DNA of 40,294 nt from NCBI GenBank assembly GCA_026415695.1, contig JAOAGP010000063.1, positions 1 through 40,294 on the forward strand. The letters are read 5' to 3'. A model generated the notes under the pieces. The model was not told where the DNA came from. It searched no databases and saw only the letters and a program-made list of their open reading frames with translations. Positions within the stretch are counted from its first letter, which is position 1, and each line of letters starts with the position of its first letter. Below, one piece after another: positions 22,654 through 34,950 of this stretch. Made by a program: the position numbers and the translations under genes. The stretch is from Thermodesulfovibrionales bacterium. Lineage in GTDB: Bacteria > Nitrospirota > Thermodesulfovibrionia > Thermodesulfovibrionales > Dissulfurispiraceae.

Positions 22654-23097
22654 ATGCAGAAGAAGGAATCCAAAAAAGCAAAAAAGGTAGAAGAAACACC
22701 TATTGTTGACGATGCAAAGGTAAGAGAGGAAAATCTCAGAAACCTGTTGCTTGAAAAAAGGAGAGAGATTCTCAAAGAGGCTATGGAGGAGATTAAAAGG
22801 TTTCAATCAGATGAAAATAAACAACTCGTAGAAACAGTGCTTGATGACGGTGATCTTTCAGTAGTTGACCTTTCAGAAGACATAAGCCTTAAACAGTTGA
22901 GTTCACATAGGGAAAACCTCCTTAAGATCGACACTGCCTTACAAAAACTAAAAGAAGGCACTTATGGTATCTGTGAAGACTGTGGAGAGGAGATAAGTGA
23001 AAAAAGACTGGAGGTAATGCCCTTTGCAATATACTGTAGAGATTGTCAAGAAAAGCAGGAACTAATGAGCAAATTGGAACAGATTGTTGAACAATGA
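22654..23097 (+). CDS. DksA/TraR-family C4 zinc-finger protein
   Basis: Probably binds the RNA polymerase secondary channel or acts as a related regulator. The 147-residue protein starts with a lysine-rich tail, then a long helical coiled-coil (about 25-100) whose central turn holds DDGDLSVVDLSED. It ends in the family zinc finger with Cys107, Cys110, Cys128 and Cys131 (GICEDCGEEIS and YCRDCQ). The turn does not clearly match the DxxDxA tip of E. coli DksA, so ppGpp co-activity cannot be assumed. GGGTGAAAG precedes the ATG. It is the last gene before a strong terminator. Confidence 0.88.
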   Translation: MQKKESKKAKKVEETPIVDDAKVREENLRNLLLEKRREILKEAMEEIKRFQSDENKQLVETVLDDGDLSVVDLSEDISLKQLSSHRENLLKIDTALQKLKEGTYGICEDCGEEISEKRLEVMPFAIYCRDCQEKQELMSKLEQIVEQ

Positions 23098-23219: not shown

Positions 23220-23567
23220 TCCTGAGTTTGTCAGTTTGTCCCCCGAAATCACTACAAATCGTCTATAACTCATTGATATTATTAGATGCGGTTTTTTGTT
23301 TGTTCATTTTTGTAGTATAATTTTTTTGACTTAATTATGCGTAATTTATTGACTTTTATTTAAGTATATAATATTATCATGTTTCTAAAGATTGTTAAAT
23401 CAGCTAACAAAACAGATTATGTCTATGTAGTAGAAAGCATAAGAGACAGCAGTGGTAATATCAAACACAAATATCTTTTCAGTTTATGAAGGCTTGAGGA
23501 TTTTATATCAACACCTGCCTTTAAGAAGTTAGCCCATAGTTATAAAATTTAACTGACAAACTCGGGA
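23220..23567. mobile_element. Decayed, internally deleted insertion element (IS1634/IS4-like)
   Basis: About 348 bases bounded by near-perfect terminal inverted repeats: TCCTGAGTTTGTCAGTT at 23220-23236 and the reverse complement of TCCCGAGTTTGTCAGTT at 23551-23567, 16 of 17 bases matching. Inside lie AT-rich sequence with promoter-like TTGACT and TATAAT boxes, and the first 57 codons of a transposase that ends at the right repeat. The right end interrupts a solute-binding-protein gene. No target duplication is evident. It is a deletion derivative unable to move by itself, and could be a MITE mobilised by a full copy. Confidence 0.7.
23379..23552 (+). pseudogene. N-terminal remnant of an IS1634-like transposase
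   Basis: Reading from ATG 23379 gives MFLKIVKSANKTDYVYVVES, the sort of N-terminus seen in IS1634/IS4-group transposases, up to KYLFSL, where a TGA (23487-23489) replaces the glycine codon expected before RLEDF. The same frame then continues RLEDFISTPAFKKLAHSYKI to a TAA at 23550-23552, at the edge of the right terminal repeat. The catalytic DDE domain is missing altogether. The family name rests on N-terminal resemblance only. Confidence 0.65.
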
Positions 23568-23889
23568 CTGATAAACCATGCAAATCTATCCCTCTCTGGA
23601 GTCTGTACCCCAAAACAGACATATCAAGGCTGCCTTTCTTTAATTCAGCCCAGATTCTTGCACGAGTCATTACCTCTATCTGAAATTTGCAACCGCTTAG
23701 TTTAGCTATATCATCAACAATATCCCTATCTATCCCTTTGCCATCATCATAGTAAAAATATCCATATTCATAAAAGGCAAGTTTTATAGGGTTATTTATA
23801 CAATCTAAAGGGGCTGCAAATAAATTTGAAACAAAAAGAAGGATGTAAGAAAGGGATAGTTTCGGCAAAAGATATCTACAAAATCTCAT
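23521..23889 (-). pseudogene. Broken solute-binding protein (SBP family 3), frameshifted and IS-interrupted
   Basis: The open frame begins at ATG 23889 with a signal peptide (about 1-28, ending NLFAA), then IKLAFYEYGYFYYDDGKGID, KLSGCKFQIEVMTRARIWAEL and GSLDMSVLG, which match the N-terminal lobe of periplasmic family-3 binding proteins. At the G-run at 23608-23611 the frame is lost: another frame continues QTPERDRFAWFIS, the expected next block, so one base seems to be missing. Just after that the terminal repeat of the IS begins, and the C-terminal lobe is absent. The remaining open frame runs nonsense to 23521. It lies seven bases after a hemerythrin gene and was probably the last gene of the HD-GYP operon. 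Confidence 0.75.
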
Positions 23890-23896
23890 TTTCTTG

Positions 23897-24298
23897 TTAT
23901 GACATTTTCTTGAAAAACTCCCCAAACTTCTTATCTGTCCCATGAATATGGGTAATCAGCCAGTTACTTAAAAAATTGAGTATTTCCATAGATAGATTGA
24001 CTTTGCCACTATGTAAGTCCCTCTCTATCGCAAAGACCTTTGTGCAAAAGTCTTTGTGCTTTCCTGAATGCTCAGCAAAGGCAGGGTATTTATGCCTTTG
24101 CATAAGTTTCTCTTCATTGTCAAAATGAAAAATAGTATAGTCCTTGAGTTTTGAGATAATCTCTTTGATAAAGTCCTTATTTTCATCCCCTTTCATGGCA
24201 TCATAAAGGTTATTTATAATCTCAACTAATCCTTTATGTTGTTCGTCAACCTCTTTTATACCTACTAACAAATCATCATTCCACTGAATTAGCGACAT
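23897..24298 (-). CDS. Bacteriohemerythrin (second of a tandem pair)
   Basis: Small four-helix O2-binding protein with a di-iron centre. The 133-residue product has every ligand: His21, His58, Glu62, His77, His81, His117 and Asp122 (in EQHKGLVE, FHFDNEE, EHSGKHKDF and THIHGTDKK). It has no signal peptide, so it should be cytoplasmic. It is about 60% identical by eye to the preceding hemerythrin, starting MSLIQWNDDL versus MSFIQWNDDL, so the two are probably a tandem duplication. AAGGGAGG lies upstream. Its neighbours, an HD-GYP sensor and a binding-protein remnant, suggest a signalling or O2-buffering role rather than storage. Confidence 0.95.
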   Translation of the reverse strand: MSLIQWNDDLLVGIKEVDEQHKGLVEIINNLYDAMKGDENKDFIKEIISKLKDYTIFHFDNEEKLMQRHKYPAFAEHSGKHKDFCTKVFAIERDLHSGKVNLSMEILNFLSNWLITHIHGTDKKFGEFFKKMS

Positions 24299-24319
24299 AA
24301 TCCTCCCTTTAATAGTTAA

Positions 24320-24733
24320 TTATTGATTTTTTTCTATAGCAGACTTTAGGAAAACTCCCATCTTTTTATCTGTCTCATTGATGTGTTTAACAAGCCAGTC
24401 AGTCAAGAAATTGAGTATTTCCATAGACAAAGCACCTTTACCACTTTGTAAATCCTTATCTATCGTAAGGACTTTCACACAAAAGTCCTTGTGTTTTGCC
24501 TTGTGGTCTGCAAAAGCAGGGTATTGATGCTCTTGCATATACCTCTCTTCTGTGTCAAAGTGATAAATTGCATAGTCTTTTAACTTAAATACCATATTGT
24601 TTATAAGTTCTTTGTTTTCACCACTTTTCATGGCTTCATATAGTGTGTTGACCATCTCAACGAGTCCTTTGTGTTGGTCATCAATCTCTTGCACTCCAAT
24701 AGATAAATCATCATTCCATTGAATAAATGACAT
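24320..24733 (-). CDS. Bacteriohemerythrin (first of a tandem pair)
   Basis: Single-domain hemerythrin of 137 residues. The di-iron ligands are complete: His21, His58, Glu62, His77, His81, His117 and Asp122. The sequence begins MSFIQWNDDLSIGVQEIDDQ, the usual N-terminal block of bacterial hemerythrins. It starts one base after the HD-GYP gene stops, with AAAAGGAGG inside the end of that gene, so the two are tightly coupled. The next hemerythrin begins 21 bases later. In other bacteria hemerythrin domains are fused to c-di-GMP enzymes; here they are separate proteins from one transcript, which points to the same O2-linked function (inference). Confidence 0.95.
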   Translation of the reverse strand: MSFIQWNDDLSIGVQEIDDQHKGLVEMVNTLYEAMKSGENKELINNMVFKLKDYAIYHFDTEERYMQEHQYPAFADHKAKHKDFCVKVLTIDKDLQSGKGALSMEILNFLTDWLVKHINETDKKMGVFLKSAIEKNQ

Positions 24734-24734
24734 A

Positions 24735-27700
24735 TTATAATCCCTCCTTTTTACTCAAATATAGTGTAATATCCGTCACATCAATCTGTTCGGGCAATAG
24801 GTATTGCTCGGCATATCTCATGCAGGCACCACTTTTTAAGAAGATGTCAAATATCTCTGAATCAATATGCTTGTCCTTTCTCATAAAGGTCATTATCTTT
24901 AGTGCCTCTGACAGGGTCTTTGCCTTTTTGTAAGGACGGTCTCTTGATGTGAGTGCCTCAAAGATGTCTGCAATAGCAAGTATCCTGCCCTGCACTGACA
25001 GATGCTCCATTGATTTTTTAAAGGGATACCCAGTGCCAATCAAGGTTTCATGGTGTGATGATGCAATGTCAACGACATTCTGCATTGTTTCTGGGAAGGG
25101 CACTTTGCTTAGCATCTGATGGGTCATAATAATATGCTCTTGTATCTTAAACCTGTCCTCATTTGTTAGTGTCCCCCTTGTGATTAAGAGATTGTATAAC
25201 TCCCCACGATTATACTCATTGTCAGGTATCTTAAGTGGATTTCCATTTATATCTGTGAGGTCTGCAGGTGGTCTTGACCAGGGGATTATGTGTTCAGGCT
25301 TGTCTGCTAAAAGTCTTTCTACTACAGGTAGTGGTGGCTCTTGAGAATTACCTTTGAGTCGGAGTTCCTCTTGCGATATGCCAAGCCTGTCGCTAAAGTA
25401 TCTCAACCAAGTTTTTTGTGCAGTCTTTAATAGCCTCTCTTTGTGTGCGTCTGACATAAACTCTCCACCAACATTACAAGTGGCAACAAAGGCAAAGTCC
25501 TCTTCTAACTCCTTTATCTTTGTCTGAAGTTCCTCTTGCAGTGCTTGTATATCAGCATTATGTTCTAAAAGGGCTTTGTAATAGTCAATCTCTGCATCTC
25601 GCCTCAACACCTCAAATCGCATCCTAATTTCATGGATCCTGTTGCAGATAGTCTCAAGCTTTGTTGCCTTGTCAACAACATACTCAGGGGTTACAACTTT
25701 ACCGCAATCGTGTAACCAAGAGGCAACCCTCATCTCATCCCATGCCTCCTCGGTATCAATCTTAAAGTCTTTAAACTCACCTTCATTGGTCTCGCTCACT
25801 GCCTTTGTAATTATCAAGGCAAGTTCTGGCACCCTTGTGCAATGCCCTGATGTGTATTGTGATTTTGCATCTATTGATGAGGCGATTACCTCTATTAGTG
25901 CATTGAATAAATCATTTAATGACTTTATGAGATTTCTGTTGTCAAGGGATACGGCAGCCTGTGAGGCAAGGGATTTGATAAACCGTATGGTCTCACTGTC
26001 TTGTTCATTGATGTAGCGTGAATTATCCTTAGTAGTAGAGTTAAATAATTGCATGACACCAATTACCTTGCCCTGTAGAGTTATAATTGGTATTGACATC
26101 AAGGCATTTATCACATAGTCTTTAGGTTCTTCTTGTAAACCAGTAGGGAATAAGGACATCTGCTTGTCGTTACAAAAGACAATTTCTCTGTTGTTGTATG
26201 CACTACAAGCCCAGTGTAAGACTGTATCCTTGCTCAAAAAAGCCATCATCTCAGGTCTAATCATCACACGAGGCACAGGGTTTTCTGAAAGTCCACCAAG
26301 TACAGTGCTACCGTCCTTGATTGACAACAACTCTACCTCAAGGACATCACCTTCTTTGAGATAAAGCACTCCACCATCTGAGTTTGATATTTCTTTAGCT
26401 AATTTAAAGATAATGGTTATCAGAGATGCCATGTTCTTCTCTGAAGAAAGGGCGATGCTACCTTGCAGTAATTTCTCAAGTTTTGCTTGGGTCTCAATCA
26501 GAGATTCAGTATTGGTCTTAATCGTTGACCTCATCGTATCAACAGCATCAATGAGACTCTTTATCTCCTTGATACTTGCATCAATTGGTGCAGAGGGAGA
26601 GAAGTCAAATCTCTGAATCTTGTCTGTCTCGTGTATTAATTGACCTATGGGTTTAGAAGCACGACAAGAAAAATAAAATGCAAGGGGGATGATAAAGAAT
26701 ACGGCAACTAATGACCAAATTACACTCCTTACATTCATCATCTTTATATAACCAGCAATCTCTTCAAGTGGGGCAGTGATTGCTACAATCAAATCAAGTC
26801 CCTTTTGGGTCGTCTTTCTCAAAGAGACCAAATACTCCCTATCACCGACCTCAATAAAGAAGGGCTTTGAATTTAAAAGTCCTTTGTCAGTTTCGAGTTT
26901 TTGGGCGACTGCCTTTATGACCTCATTGGGTGACACTTTAGCATCGGGGAGTTTCAACTCCTGTGCTGTCTGCTCCTTCCACGACACACCCGGAAAGGCA
27001 ACGAGTTTGTTTTGACTGTCTATTACCCATAAAAAGCCACTATCACCAATCTTCTGACTTGAAAGTAGTTCAGACATCTGAGATAGGGATAAGTCAATCC
27101 CCATAACTCCAACATCATTTTTTAGCACCTTTGCACAGGTTATGCCGGGTAGTCGTGAACTACTAAAGATGTAAGGCGGTGTAAAGATGCTTCCACTGCT
27201 CTGCATCGCTGATTTATACCATGGTCTCATCCTTGGGTCGTAGTCAAACTTTGTGTCTATCTTTTGGGATATGAATCTTAAGTCATTGTCAAAATAACGC
27301 CATCTTTGAGTCAGAGTGCCACCTTGATTATTTATCACCCTATCAATGTATTTAGTCCCTTCAGGTGCATTGTATATCTTTATTATTTGCTGATCGCCCC
27401 TCGTGGCAAAAACTTGGTAAAAGAAGCCATTATTAAAACCCACATAGGCAGACATAAGATTTTGGTTTTCATCAAGTATGTCTTTTAGTCGTAAGAGGTG
27501 TTGTTTGATATTCATATCGTTACTAATATCGTTAAAAGATGTGAATTTAAGAGATGCTATTGATGTAATGCTTGCAAGTGGGTCAAGGACAAGGTTTATC
27601 CTTGCAATATTTTTCTCTGCAACCTCTGTAAATAGATGCTCTGCTGATTGAAGTGTTGCCTTTCTGCTTTCAGTAGAAACAACTATGACATTAAGCAAAG

Positions 27701-27779
27701 TAAGTATTACTGCTACCTCAATAATAATAAGCGTCAAGAGTGTGGCAAAGGAGATGTTTGAGATTTTGGTGGTTTTCAT
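24735..27779 (-). CDS. Membrane sensor with Cache, HAMP, GAF and HD-GYP domains
   Basis: Predicted c-di-GMP phosphodiesterase of 1014 residues. Order: TM1 (about 10-34), a periplasmic double-Cache domain (about 40-340; RPWYKSAMQSSG and VMGIDLSLSQMSELL), TM2 (about 352-372), HAMP, GAF (about 450-610), then an HD-GYP domain with HD pair His690-Asp691 (WLHDCGK), HHE at 909-911 followed by TLIGTGYP, and ADIFEALTSRDRPYK near the end. The standard motif is HHExxDGxGYP; here the Asp is Ile. About 200 residues separate HD and HHE, with a coiled-coil insert (KLETICNRIHEIRMRFEVL) that recurs in this subfamily. Two hemerythrins follow on the same transcript. The start has no Shine-Dalgarno. Confidence 0.93.
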   Translation of the reverse strand: MKTTKISNISFATLLTLIIIEVAVILTLLNVIVVSTESRKATLQSAEHLFTEVAEKNIARINLVLDPLASITSIASLKFTSFNDISNDMNIKQHLLRLKDILDENQNLMSAYVGFNNGFFYQVFATRGDQQIIKIYNAPEGTKYIDRVINNQGGTLTQRWRYFDNDLRFISQKIDTKFDYDPRMRPWYKSAMQSSGSIFTPPYIFSSSRLPGITCAKVLKNDVGVMGIDLSLSQMSELLSSQKIGDSGFLWVIDSQNKLVAFPGVSWKEQTAQELKLPDAKVSPNEVIKAVAQKLETDKGLLNSKPFFIEVGDREYLVSLRKTTQKGLDLIVAITAPLEEIAGYIKMMNVRSVIWSLVAVFFIIPLAFYFSCRASKPIGQLIHETDKIQRFDFSPSAPIDASIKEIKSLIDAVDTMRSTIKTNTESLIETQAKLEKLLQGSIALSSEKNMASLITIIFKLAKEISNSDGGVLYLKEGDVLEVELLSIKDGSTVLGGLSENPVPRVMIRPEMMAFLSKDTVLHWACSAYNNREIVFCNDKQMSLFPTGLQEEPKDYVINALMSIPIITLQGKVIGVMQLFNSTTKDNSRYINEQDSETIRFIKSLASQAAVSLDNRNLIKSLNDLFNALIEVIASSIDAKSQYTSGHCTRVPELALIITKAVSETNEGEFKDFKIDTEEAWDEMRVASWLHDCGKVVTPEYVVDKATKLETICNRIHEIRMRFEVLRRDAEIDYYKALLEHNADIQALQEELQTKIKELEEDFAFVATCNVGGEFMSDAHKERLLKTAQKTWLRYFSDRLGISQEELRLKGNSQEPPLPVVERLLADKPEHIIPWSRPPADLTDINGNPLKIPDNEYNRGELYNLLITRGTLTNEDRFKIQEHIIMTHQMLSKVPFPETMQNVVDIASSHHETLIGTGYPFKKSMEHLSVQGRILAIADIFEALTSRDRPYKKAKTLSEALKIMTFMRKDKHIDSEIFDIFLKSGACMRYAEQYLLPEQIDVTDITLYLSKKEGL

Positions 27780-27850: not shown

Positions 27851-28258
27851 TCAAATCTTACTATCTTTAAAATCAGAAAATCTCATTAGATGATACTGAA
27901 GGGCTATTATCTTAAATGCCTCAACAACAGGCAACTTGTCGCACATCTTTTCAAACCTTCTTTTTATCTCTGCTTGTTGTTTTTCCGAAATGCCCAATAT
28001 GTGTGATCGCATCTCAATAAAAACAATAGCAGACTCCTTTGTAAGACCTTCTGCAAGTTTTGTAACTTCCTCTTTGTCAGAGATATATTGCTGTTGAGTA
28101 TTGCTTGAAACATTAGCATCTGCCTTATTTGTTTGAATAGTTTGAGGTGTTTGTTCCTTGTTTTCAGGCTTTGTGAGGGTAAAAAGACCATACCCTCCGC
28201 CTGCACCAAGTAAAACACATAAAATTATTACAACAATATATAACATAAGACTCTCCAT
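27851..28258 (-). CDS. Small membrane-anchored protein, function unknown
   Basis: The product is about 135 residues from ATG 28258; an in-frame GTG at 28312 would add 18 residues with a second hydrophobic run, and I prefer the ATG because it starts directly before the main membrane helix. That helix (about 5-28, LYIVVIILCVLLGAGGGYG) is followed by a Gln/Asn/Thr-rich linker (about 30-60) and a C-terminal helical domain (KEEVTKLAEGLTKESAIVF, SEKQQAEIKRRFEKMCDKL). This is a bitopic protein with one small soluble domain, probably N-in. No known family is recognised. It sits upstream of the HD-GYP gene but with its own 71-base gap, and is divergent from the PagL-like gene. Confidence 0.6.
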   Translation of the reverse strand: MESLMLYIVVIILCVLLGAGGGYGLFTLTKPENKEQTPQTIQTNKADANVSSNTQQQYISDKEEVTKLAEGLTKESAIVFIEMRSHILGISEKQQAEIKRRFEKMCDKLPVVEAFKIIALQYHLMRFSDFKDSKI

Positions 28259-28298
28259 TAGTTTTTTGGATATATGTGGAAAAAAGTAGACTAAAATA

Positions 28299-28304
28299 TA
28301 TAAT
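28299..28304 (+). promoter_or_regulatory. -10 box for the PagL-like gene
   Basis: TATAAT at 28299-28304, 41 bases before ATG 28346, in an AT-rich TATATAATATAT stretch that could also serve the divergent gene. The -35 region (around 28276, GTGGAA) is weak. AAAGGAG follows at about 28327-28334. Confidence 0.4.
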
Positions 28305-28345
28305 ATATCCACCCAAACAAAAAATTAAAGGAGCGACCTGCCAAA

Positions 28346-28930
28346 ATGAAAAAGTCTTTTTACATCAAACTGTTATTGTTGTGCCTTGTCTTTGTCTTTT
28401 TTTTAACTCAAGACATTCAAGCCAAAGAACCTTGGTATTTGTCATTTTATGCAGGGCAGTCTAATCATAAAAAGTATATTGATTACTTCAAACTCAATTC
28501 TGCCCCTGAAGATTCTTACATATTTGCAATAGCAGGGGGAAAATCAATATTTAGACTGCATGAAAATGTGACCATTGATGCAGAAGGTATCATTGCACAG
28601 CATGCCGGCAAACAATCTAATCAGGAATTTGGGATTGCCTTAATCTTAAGAACGCGTTTTAACATATCTGATAGCCTAAATCTTGGTTTTGCAGTTGGGG
28701 ATGGCTTGTCATATACAAGCACTATACCCAAGATTGAAACGGACAATTCAGAAGACACAGCAAGGTTGCTAAACCTACTGCTTACAGAGGTTACAGTTGG
28801 TTTTAACAAATCAAGGATTGATACATTTTTGAGGATACATCATAGGTCAGGTATATTTGGGTCTGTAAGCGGAGTGGATAAAGGGGGGTCAAACTTCCTC
28901 GCTATCGGGATCAGATATTATTTCCATTGA
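28346..28930 (+). CDS. PagL-like outer-membrane barrel (possible lipid A 3-O-deacylase)
   Basis: A 194-residue secreted protein with a signal peptide (about 1-26, ending DIQA) and about eight amphipathic strands, ending IGIRYYFH, a C-terminal aromatic strand typical of outer-membrane barrels. The segment RIHHRSGIFG near residue 166 resembles the HxS active-site motif of PagL acyloxyacyl/lipid A 3-O-deacylases, but the catalytic Glu is not obvious (an Asp lies ten residues after the Ser). Function as a deacylase is therefore only a suggestion; a simple structural barrel is the alternative. Its stop codon directly abuts the stop of the convergent NuoF-like gene. Confidence 0.6.
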   Translation: MKKSFYIKLLLLCLVFVFFLTQDIQAKEPWYLSFYAGQSNHKKYIDYFKLNSAPEDSYIFAIAGGKSIFRLHENVTIDAEGIIAQHAGKQSNQEFGIALILRTRFNISDSLNLGFAVGDGLSYTSTIPKIETDNSEDTARLLNLLLTEVTVGFNKSRIDTFLRIHHRSGIFGSVSGVDKGGSNFLAIGIRYYFH

Positions 28931-32144: not shown

Positions 32145-33173
32145 TCAATAAGCTTGCTTGTCCGTTACAACATCATCTACCGAGATAGGCTCCCTAAAGA
32201 CACGATAGATCCATATCTGATAAGCGATGACGATTGGCACAAATATCAGGGCAACAACGGTCATAATCTTTAGGGTATAAACACTTGATGATGTGTTAAA
32301 TATAGTAAGGCTATATTCAGGCGATATGCTCGATGGTATAAGGTTTGGAAATAGCCCTGCAACCCCCGTAAAAACCACTGAAAATATCAGCACACATGAG
32401 GCATAAAAGGCTCCAGTGAAGTTTTCTTTAGCGGTTAGCGGTTTTATGGCAACAAGTGATATTACAGCAGTCAACGGTAATACAAACAAGGCTGGCATAT
32501 TGAAATAATTGTCATAGAGTTTGGTTGCAAAGTATGTGTAGATGAGAAATACTACGGCTATAACTAATGTCAAAGTCCAAAACTTACCTGATAATGCAGT
32601 TGCCCTCACCCTTACTTCACCCTTTGTCCTTATTGAAAGCCACAATGAACCGTGCATTAAAAATAGTAAAACAAAGAGCAGTCCTGTCAAAATGCCGTAA
32701 GGATTTAGCAATGTAAATAAACTGCCATGATACCCCTTATCGTCCATAGGTAAGCCCTGAAAGATGTTACCAAAGGCTACCCCAAACAAGAGTGCAGGGA
32801 TGAAACTACCTAAAAATATGGCTATGTCCCAACCATTTTTCCAACCCTGACCTTCAACCTTACCCCTAAACTCAAATGCAACACCCCTGAAGATTAGGGC
32901 AAAGAGGATGATTAACAGAGGGGTATAGAGATAACTAAACATCAAGGCATAGGTCGTAGGAAATGCTGCAAAGGTAGCACCACCTGCGGTTATCAACCAC
33001 ACCTCGTTGCCATCCCAAACAGGGCCAACGGTGTTTATGATCTGTCTCTTCTCACCATCTGTCTTACCAATGAAATTATGAAGAATGCCGATACCAAAAT
33101 CAAAACCATCAAGCATGAAATACACTGCCCAGAGGACACCCCAGAGGATAAACCAAATTATCTGAAATTCCAT
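32145..33173 (-). CDS. cydB: Cytochrome bd oxidase subunit II
   Basis: Second subunit of the bd-type quinol oxidase, a high-affinity oxidase that does not pump protons. The 342-residue membrane protein has about eight to nine hydrophobic helices and the family start WFILWGVLWAVYFMLDGFDFGIG, with TVGPVWDGNEVWLITAGGATFAAFPTTYA following. It begins one base after cydA, with AAGGAGG in the end of that gene. No cydX-like small gene is seen after it. The long C-terminal part (after 240) is ordinary for the family. Menaquinol from the MqnC route is a plausible electron donor. Confidence 0.96.
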   Translation of the reverse strand: MEFQIIWFILWGVLWAVYFMLDGFDFGIGILHNFIGKTDGEKRQIINTVGPVWDGNEVWLITAGGATFAAFPTTYALMFSYLYTPLLIILFALIFRGVAFEFRGKVEGQGWKNGWDIAIFLGSFIPALLFGVAFGNIFQGLPMDDKGYHGSLFTLLNPYGILTGLLFVLLFLMHGSLWLSIRTKGEVRVRATALSGKFWTLTLVIAVVFLIYTYFATKLYDNYFNMPALFVLPLTAVISLVAIKPLTAKENFTGAFYASCVLIFSVVFTGVAGLFPNLIPSSISPEYSLTIFNTSSSVYTLKIMTVVALIFVPIVIAYQIWIYRVFREPISVDDVVTDKQAY

Positions 33174-33174
33174 C

Positions 33175-34524
33175 TTATGCCTCCTTTGTCCTTGTAAGGT
33201 TTAAAAGGGTTGATGTATCTGAATCAGGTCCCTTTTTTGAGTATTTTGCCAAAAGATACACATCCACAACACCCAAGAATCCATAAAACAATGTAAAACC
33301 AATGAGAGAAAACCAGACCTGCCCTACTGTGATGCCCTTTGATACAGCATCTGCAGTCTTTAACAGTCCATAGACTATCCACGGCTGTCTTCCAACTTCT
33401 GCAACAATCCAGCCCAATTGACCTGCTATGTAAGGTAATGGGATTGAAAAGAGCAACAGATACAGAAATAATGGGTATTTAGTGGGTTCCTTAAAGGCGA
33501 CAAAGACCCCCAAAATGGCAATAAGTATAAACAGAAATCCCATGCCCGCCATGAGTTTGAAACTGATAAAGGTTGGCATCACTGGTGGTCTTAAATCCTT
33601 TGGAAAGTCTTTTAACCCCTTTATCTCGGCATCTGCCTTATGAAATGCAAGGAGGCTGAGCATATTTGGTATGCCGAGTGCCTCAATAGCATTTCTTTCC
33701 TTTTCAGGGTCTGGTAAAAGTATCAGATAATACGGGGCATTCCTTTGGGTATCCCATACCCCTTCCATTGCTGCAAATTTTGTGGGTTGCACGGCGGCTA
33801 CCTCTTCAGCAGAGATACTTCCAGAACCTGCAACAAGGAGGGTTGAAACGAGTGCAAAGGTGGCACCTATCTTTAAAGACTTCTTAAAGAAGTCAACCTC
33901 ATTTTTTCTTAAGAGGTGATAAGCAGATACACCCATTACAAAAAAGCCTGCAACAACATAACCTGAAAATACCGTGTGGAAAAACTTTGTCCAACCATAT
34001 GAGTTTGTAAGCAGAGCCATGAAATCAACCATTTCAGCCCTGTTGTTGTTTATCACATAGCCTACAGGTTGTTGCATCCAACCATTTGCAATGAGTATCC
34101 ACAGCGCAGAAAGGTTTGTAGCAATTGCAACCATCCAAATCGCAAAGGCATGTGTCTTCTTTGAAACCTTATTCCAACCAAATATCCATAATCCTAAAAA
34201 TGATGATTCAAGAAAGAATGCGACCGTTGCCTCAATTGCAAGTGGTGAGCCAAAGATGTCTCCTACATACTTTGAGTATTCAGCCCAGTTCATACCAAAC
34301 TGAAACTCAAGAGTTATCCCTGTCACAACACCAAGTGCAAAGTTGATCAAGAACAGTTTTCCCCAAAACTTCGTCATCTTCAGATATGTCTCATCACCTG
34401 TTTTTACGTACTTTGTTTCCATGTAGGCAATGAGTAAAGAAAGTCCAAGGGTAAGTGGCACAAAGATGAAGTGAAATGCCGCAGTAATCGCAAATTGTAT
34501 TCTACTAAGCATCAATACATCCAT
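33175..34524 (-). CDS. cydA: Cytochrome bd oxidase subunit I
   Basis: Quinol-oxidising heme subunit. The 449-residue protein has the N-terminal RIQFAITAAFHFIFVPLTLGLS with His18, a heme b595 ligand; the Glu-rich helix EATVAFFLESSFLGLW; FFHTVFSGYVVAGFF with the next heme ligand; and EVGRQPWIVYGLLKTADAVS, the diagnostic GRQPW block. It is shorter than E. coli CydA (522), consistent with the short Q-loop class. AAAGGAGGT precedes the ATG closely. A hemerythrin ends 18 bases upstream on the same strand, so O2-binding protein and oxidase are co-transcribed. Confidence 0.97.
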   Translation of the reverse strand: MDVLMLSRIQFAITAAFHFIFVPLTLGLSLLIAYMETKYVKTGDETYLKMTKFWGKLFLINFALGVVTGITLEFQFGMNWAEYSKYVGDIFGSPLAIEATVAFFLESSFLGLWIFGWNKVSKKTHAFAIWMVAIATNLSALWILIANGWMQQPVGYVINNNRAEMVDFMALLTNSYGWTKFFHTVFSGYVVAGFFVMGVSAYHLLRKNEVDFFKKSLKIGATFALVSTLLVAGSGSISAEEVAAVQPTKFAAMEGVWDTQRNAPYYLILLPDPEKERNAIEALGIPNMLSLLAFHKADAEIKGLKDFPKDLRPPVMPTFISFKLMAGMGFLFILIAILGVFVAFKEPTKYPLFLYLLLFSIPLPYIAGQLGWIVAEVGRQPWIVYGLLKTADAVSKGITVGQVWFSLIGFTLFYGFLGVVDVYLLAKYSKKGPDSDTSTLLNLTRTKEA

Positions 34525-34542: not shown

Positions 34543-34950
34543 TCATTTCAGTCCTTTTAGATTTAGATAGACCCCAAACTGCTTGTCCATCTTTAAGATG
34601 TGGTTTTGCAACCACCCTTTTAGAAATTCCATTAGATCAAGGGTGATGTCTGACTTTGCACTCTTGAATCTCTCGTAAAATTCATTGGTCTTTTGTGTGA
34701 GTTCATCGTGTTGGGTCTTATGAACCCTGTATTCAGGATATGAGTAATTTCTCATGTGTCGCTCTTCTGTAGCAAAATGGGTGTTACAATAGATGGTCAA
34801 TCTTGAGAGTATGTCTTCAAGGACATCCCTTGCCCTGCCACCTTTAAGGGCACTGTGAAGGTCGTTTATCAACTCAAAGAGTTTTTTATGCTGTGCATCA
34901 ATCTCTGATATGTTGATCTTATATGCATCATCCCACACTGCAAAAGGCAT
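34543..34950 (-). CDS. Bacteriohemerythrin next to cydA
   Basis: Third single-domain hemerythrin of the window, 135 residues, with all di-iron ligands: His21, His58, Glu62, His77, His81, His117, Asp122. It is clearly more diverged from the tandem pair (MPFAVWDDAYKINISEIDAQ), so it is not part of that recent duplication. It starts one base after galE stops, with GGGGTGATGAG at the overlap, and cydA begins 18 bases later. The position suggests delivery or buffering of O2 for the bd oxidase, as proposed for hemerythrins linked to respiratory oxidases; that is inference. Confidence 0.95.
   Translation of the reverse strand: MPFAVWDDAYKINISEIDAQHKKLFELINDLHSALKGGRARDVLEDILSRLTIYCNTHFATEERHMRNYSYPEYRVHKTQHDELTQKTNEFYERFKSAKSDITLDLMEFLKGWLQNHILKMDKQFGVYLNLKGLK

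Follow-up and report, generated by a model that had tools for sequence, protein, structure and literature searches.

The 40,294-nt stretch of DNA analysed here (the window; contig JAOAGP010000063.1 of a Thermodesulfovibrionales bacterium) carries a locus in which a membrane-anchored HD-GYP protein, predicted to hydrolyse cyclic di-GMP (c-di-GMP), is followed by two stand-alone hemerythrin genes and the remnant of a periplasmic solute-binding protein (SBP) gene. We found that the association of HD-GYP and hemerythrin genes is real and non-random, and that the locus is a variant of the known Bhr-HD-GYP, in which the two are fused. The recurrence of such gene neighbours in other bacteria suggests that oxygen or redox control may be provided by free subunits, with no need for a fused sensor domain.

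Organisation of the locus

Read in the direction of transcription, all on the minus strand, the locus consists of the dCache-GAF-HD-GYP gene, hemerythrin A, hemerythrin B and the SBP_bac_3 remnant, separated by gaps of 1, 21 and 7 bases. Genes and gaps agree with a preliminary description made from the sequence. The HD-GYP protein and the hemerythrins are encoded by separate open reading frames (ORFs) with stops and their own starts, and not as the single polypeptide of the fused Bhr-HD-GYP. Because the gene spacing is so tight, we infer a single transcript; promoter and terminator scans of the locus stayed near chance level and settle nothing on transcription. Positions of all features, given in window coordinates unless stated otherwise, are collected in Table 1.

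HD-GYP and hemerythrin genes are associated beyond this genome

We compared the site with that of same-genus genomes, using the outer-membrane beta-barrel-like gene and the next ORF as markers. In one of them, the sister species G002, the syntenic site carries a gene for a 430-aa membrane HD-GYP-hemerythrin fusion, and because of this HD-GYP and hemerythrin have probably not come together here by coincidence. The other (G001) has cobalamin genes at the same site, with neither HD-GYP nor hemerythrin, which shows that the pairing is not fixed in the genus. Further HD-GYP-hemerythrin fusions are sparse in the phylum (G017, G026, G174, G237 and, twice, G320), and in G232 an unfused receiver-HD-GYP gene is followed by a hemerythrin gene.

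Pseudomonadota, the phylum of the Thalassobium record L008, contain many relatives that match the Cache-GAF-HD-GYP protein over its full length (35-39% identity, 530-664 bits), and named plasmids of Vibrio, Aeromonas, Rahnella and Cupriavidus carry such genes too. When named genomes were scanned with the complete HD-GYP protein, only one weak relative turned up. We fetched 80 Pseudomonadota loci and counted hemerythrin genes in the flanks of 67 of them, with the expected count calculated from how densely hemerythrin genes occur in these genomes (up to 26 hemerythrin-domain matches in a genome). There were 16 hemerythrin genes where 1.9 were expected, an 8-fold enrichment; the loci are not phylogenetically independent, and those with a linked hemerythrin fall in several separate lineages of the trees.

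Five of these hemerythrin genes lie within 50 bp of the HD-GYP gene on the same strand, four directly downstream (L269, L271, L284 and L285) and one directly upstream (L268). Two further loci (L266 and L277) are operons that read GAF-HD-GYP, Cache-PAS-SpoIIE sensor, hemerythrin, hemerythrin; in L271 a histidine kinase precedes a receiver-GAF-HD-GYP gene and a hemerythrin, and in L285 a large upstream gene is followed by receiver-GAF-HD-GYP and then hemerythrin. All seven di-iron ligands are retained in the hemerythrins of the linked pairs, except for that of L271, which has lost one. An association confined to this genome was rejected on the strength of the G002 fusion and the Pseudomonadota enrichment. 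The hemerythrin/HD-GYP link first proposed from the window is thus not a product of chance, as the fusion at the same site, the enrichment and the tandem-hemerythrin operons all indicate. We also noted a very large Pseudomonadota protein with two tandem hemerythrin domains, encoded upstream of a GAF-HD-GYP gene (L237 8299-11901).

The encoded proteins retain their metal ligands

Matches to solved structures settle the folds of the locus proteins at the level of sequence. The 1014-aa HD-GYP protein matched the solved GAF-HD-GYP structure 4mcw (PmGH) with an E-value of 5.7e-25; its HAMP match remained below the Pfam cut-off. The metal and catalytic set is complete (H646, H690, D691, H882, H909, H910, E911, G917-Y918-P919 and D938), and these residues are invariant or nearly so across 98 relatives. 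The protein thus has the HD and HHE...GxGYP residues of a c-di-GMP phosphodiesterase and is predicted to hydrolyse c-di-GMP. The window protein shares the GAF-HD-GYP core and metal ligands with PmGH, which lacks the Cache domain, the hemerythrin and the long insert. Another difference is Tyr642, four residues before H646, which is Tyr in nearly all relatives and aligns with a Glu of PmGH that we take to be a third-metal ligand.

Hemerythrins A and B scored 55 and 56 bits against Pfam Hemerythrin, and 149 and 150 bits against the NCBIfam bacteriohemerythrin model NF033749 (cut-off 84). Both contain the five His, one Glu and one Asp of bacteriohemerythrins (H21, H58, E62, H77, H81, H117 and D122). 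The nearest solved structure is the DcrH hemerythrin domain 2avk (80 bits for A). The two proteins form a pair in the hemerythrin tree with support of 100/97, and by sequence they are a tandem duplicate. The pair was placed beside an own-phylum group that includes HD-GYP fusions (95/78); the approximately unbiased (AU) test did not reject the alternative placement (p-value 0.43).

The HD-GYP gene was probably acquired from outside the phylum

In the window protein, 192 residues separate the HD pair from the next metal-binding His. The 74 Pseudomonadota relatives all have 189-198 residues there, and the 24 relatives from the window protein's own phylum all have 140-145. In a carefully built tree the own-phylum proteins formed a clade (100/99) without the window protein, which was placed among the others at 95/94. 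Its branch is long (0.88-1.18), and forcing it together with its own phylum gave an AU p-value of 0.076. Because of the insert spacing and the tree placement, horizontal acquisition of the HD-GYP gene is likely but not proven. A first quick tree had grouped the window protein with relatives that have a hemerythrin gene directly downstream; the careful tree did not uphold this grouping and we do not claim it.

No full-length ortholog of the HD-GYP protein was found in 31 genomes of the family or in 396 of the phylum, where shorter matches covered the GAF-HD-GYP part only. Co-conservation of the four-gene set in close relatives, the check suggested at the outset, was not found in these genomes either.

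The binding-protein gene is broken by a decayed insertion element

The SBP remnant scored 23 bits against Pfam SBP_bac_3, below the cut-off of 26.4, and covers only the first half of the family. Its segment 23608-23790 is 41-46% identical to SBPs encoded upstream of Cache-GAF-HD-GYP genes. The similarity to intact relatives ends around 23608 and, by our reading of the sequence, the motif that should follow is found in a different frame. From 23567 on, the 3' part of the gene is replaced by the right end of an insertion element, and the remainder was absent between this element and the dksA-like gene. We rejected the idea that the ORF specifies a short functional protein, because it is the element end that codes for its final residues. 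The binding protein had been called lost in the preliminary description, and this is borne out: the gene is both truncated by the decayed element and out of frame.

The 36-codon frame within the element had no Pfam match and no meaningful NCBIfam match. The terminal sequence of the element (about 31 bp) recurs beside a transposase-like fragment on contig C110 (L307 around 1500-1532), where the transposase match is weak.

In four Pseudomonadota loci (L240, L297, L301 and L302) the window SBP matched intact SBP genes directly upstream of Cache-GAF-HD-GYP genes (E 6e-10 to 1e-14), and the SBP and receptor genes overlap by 4 bases in L297 and L301. In L241 another SBP gene precedes the HD-GYP gene at a distance of 23 bp. 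A search of 296 own-phylum genomes with the window SBP gave a single weak match. The four loci support the earlier suggestion of a binding protein formerly dedicated to the Cache receptor; no intact gene for it stands beside the receptor in the window.

Other hemerythrin genes of the genome

A third stand-alone hemerythrin gene of the window lies 18 bp upstream of the cytochrome bd oxidase genes, placed as if to hand O2 to this oxidase. The hemerythrin-cydA arrangement is retained in G001 (L139) and not in G002 (L140). This genome, G001 and G232 share a conserved pair made up of a hemerythrin gene and, after it, a gene for a small receiver-like protein (126-141 aa); in G232 the pair is preceded by a receiver-HD-GYP gene. 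On contig C58 (L099 5560-7023) this genome has, in addition, a gene for a DcrH-type HAMP-MCP-hemerythrin fusion, with a counterpart in G001 (L142).

Table 1. Features of the locus, its surroundings and related gene pairs.
Feature	Position	Strand	Basis or remark
dksA-like gene	ends at 23097		beyond the insertion element, seen from the SBP remnant
Decayed insertion element	23220..23567	.	17-bp terminal inverted repeats 23220-23236 / 23551-23567
36-codon frame within the element, transposase-N-terminus-like	23379..23489	+	sequence reading only
SBP_bac_3 (family-3 SBP) remnant, signal-like N-terminus and first lobe only	23521..23889	-	Pfam SBP_bac_3
Hemerythrin B, 133 aa, 63% identical to A	23897..24298	-	Pfam Hemerythrin, NCBIfam
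Hemerythrin A, 137 aa, no apparent signal peptide	24320..24733	-	Pfam Hemerythrin, NCBIfam
dCache-(HAMP-like)-GAF-HD-GYP, membrane-anchored, predicted c-di-GMP phosphodiesterase	24735..27779	-	Pfam, Pseudomonadota relatives, 4mcw match
HD-GYP catalytic domain, residues ~641-1000	24780..25859	-	Pfam HD_5, 141 bits
GAF domain, residues 448-613	25941..26438	-	Pfam GAF_2 (37 bits) / GAF
dCache_1 domain, periplasmic, residues 147-321	26817..27341	-	Pfam E 5e-19, 69 bits; solved-chemoreceptor Cache matches
Neighbouring ORF, unknown membrane protein	27851..28312	-	synteny marker; its G002 relative is followed by the fusion gene
Outer-membrane beta-barrel-like protein	28346..28930	+	second synteny marker, 71% DNA identity with G002
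cydB	32145-33173		downstream of cydA
cydA	33175-34524		downstream of third stand-alone hemerythrin
Third stand-alone hemerythrin	34543-34950	-	
Hemerythrin + receiver-like pair	L103 6692-7544		contig C96, this genome
Hemerythrin + receiver-like pair	L139 8896-9772		
Hemerythrin + receiver-like pair	L166 1087-1902		

Comparison with known systems

The characterised hemerythrin-HD-GYP fusion, Bhr-HD-GYP, comes from Ferrovum sp. PN-J185 (Kitanishi 2020, reviewed in PMC9388753). The reduced protein is active and the oxidised one is not (PMC9388753, PMC8846402); each subunit contains four irons, and activity is lost on oxidation (PMC9388753). Like the locus described here it couples hemerythrin to an HD-GYP c-di-GMP phosphodiesterase. 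However, it is one chain with an N-terminal hemerythrin, whereas in the locus the two hemerythrins have genes of their own and the enzyme is a membrane Cache-GAF-HD-GYP protein with a long insert. The preliminary description wrongly assigned such an HD-GYP fusion to Vibrio cholerae in place of Ferrovum; it was correct about the V. cholerae hemerythrin-diguanylate cyclase, Bhr-DGC (PMC9388753, PMC8846402). The latter also uses the redox state of a hemerythrin in c-di-GMP control, but it is fused and drives synthesis (GGDEF), not breakdown.

DcrH, a chemoreceptor with a C-terminal hemerythrin, has the closest solved hemerythrin domain and resembles the methyl-accepting chemotaxis protein (MCP)-hemerythrin fusion encoded elsewhere in this genome; unlike the locus, it is fused and has a chemotaxis output. 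NspS-MbaA is a periplasmic binding-protein/receptor pair coupled to a c-di-GMP enzyme. In RmcA, a receptor with a fused SBP_bac_3 domain (PMC8846402), a periplasmic solute-binding domain is likewise coupled to such an enzyme. The SBP gene of the locus, in contrast to both, is dead, and its counterparts in the relatives are free-standing genes upstream of an HD-GYP receptor. A literature search, of incomplete coverage, found no description of stand-alone hemerythrins paired with HD-GYP genes.

Discussion

The explanation we prefer is that the locus encodes a c-di-GMP phosphodiesterase tuned by O2 or redox state, with hemerythrins as its detachable subunits, and that this enzyme has lost its periplasmic ligand input; we see the case for it as evenly balanced. 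The membrane protein would sense a periplasmic signal via the Cache domain and hydrolyse c-di-GMP via HD-GYP. The two small cytoplasmic hemerythrins would act on this enzyme in trans, their di-iron centres switching redox state with O2 and thereby shifting phosphodiesterase activity, so that loose hemerythrins would do the job of the fused domain in Bhr-HD-GYP. By analogy with the Ferrovum protein, the reduced form would be the active one. The catalytic gene probably arrived from Pseudomonadota with its own periplasmic SBP, which would later have been destroyed by the insertion element, with loss of the ligand input. We infer the hemerythrin-HD-GYP contact, the regulation by O2 or redox state and its direction, and the ligand-input loss from gene order, retained residues and these analogies.

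Several observations weigh against this explanation. The exact four-gene set is known from this one genome only. No hemerythrin gene is nearby at 24 of the 25 own-phylum GAF-HD-GYP loci that we fetched, nor at most of the Pseudomonadota loci; since most loci have none, the GAF-HD-GYP enzyme in general does not need a nearby hemerythrin. The genome has seven hemerythrin genes in total, so that adjacency need not mean partnership, and the broken SBP may signal a decaying locus.

The hemerythrins could instead scavenge O2 or hold iron and so keep the O2-labile ferrous centre of the HD-GYP enzyme loaded and active, with no part in signalling; the lability of the enzyme would then be the reason for their co-expression. 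HD-GYP enzymes do use metal centres and Bhr-HD-GYP is inactivated by oxidation (PMC9388753), stand-alone bacteriohemerythrins elsewhere bind or deliver O2 (PMC12607906), and another hemerythrin gene of the window lies directly upstream of cydAB. We nevertheless consider such a protective or supplying role unlikely, since the G002 fusion at the same site and sensor fusions elsewhere fit a signalling contact better than bulk scavenging, and five further hemerythrins of the genome could do the scavenging.

The acquired receptor may also have landed upstream of the hemerythrin genes, or the hemerythrins may have duplicated there, and the genes would then share a transcript at most and no common function. 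The four-gene set was not found elsewhere, tandem hemerythrins occur without HD-GYP in G015 and L137, and the HD-GYP gene and the hemerythrins may differ in origin. But the hemerythrin enrichment near HD-GYP relatives in another phylum and the HD-GYP-hemerythrin fusion that the sister species has at this site speak against mere adjacency, which appears improbable to us. A decaying locus, in which the receptor is of no use without its binding protein and the other genes are on their way to being lost, would agree with the twice-broken SBP gene and the long HD-GYP branch, but it is hardly credible with the 1014-codon and both hemerythrin frames open and every catalytic and ligand residue retained.

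The detachable-subunit explanation can be extended, with some doubt on our part. In at least two phyla, HD-GYP phosphodiesterases may use hemerythrins as O2/redox subunits that can be detached and exchanged. The fused form (in the sister species) and the acquired receptor with free hemerythrins (in this genome) would then be alternatives at one and the same site, the pairing persisting while the enzyme changes.

Hemerythrin-based oxygen control of c-di-GMP has so far been known from a few fused proteins only. Control of HD-GYP enzymes in trans by loose hemerythrins, if real, would turn many stand-alone bacteriohemerythrins without an assigned role, among them some of the hemerythrin-domain matches counted here, into candidates for signalling subunits, and gene order would serve to recognise them.

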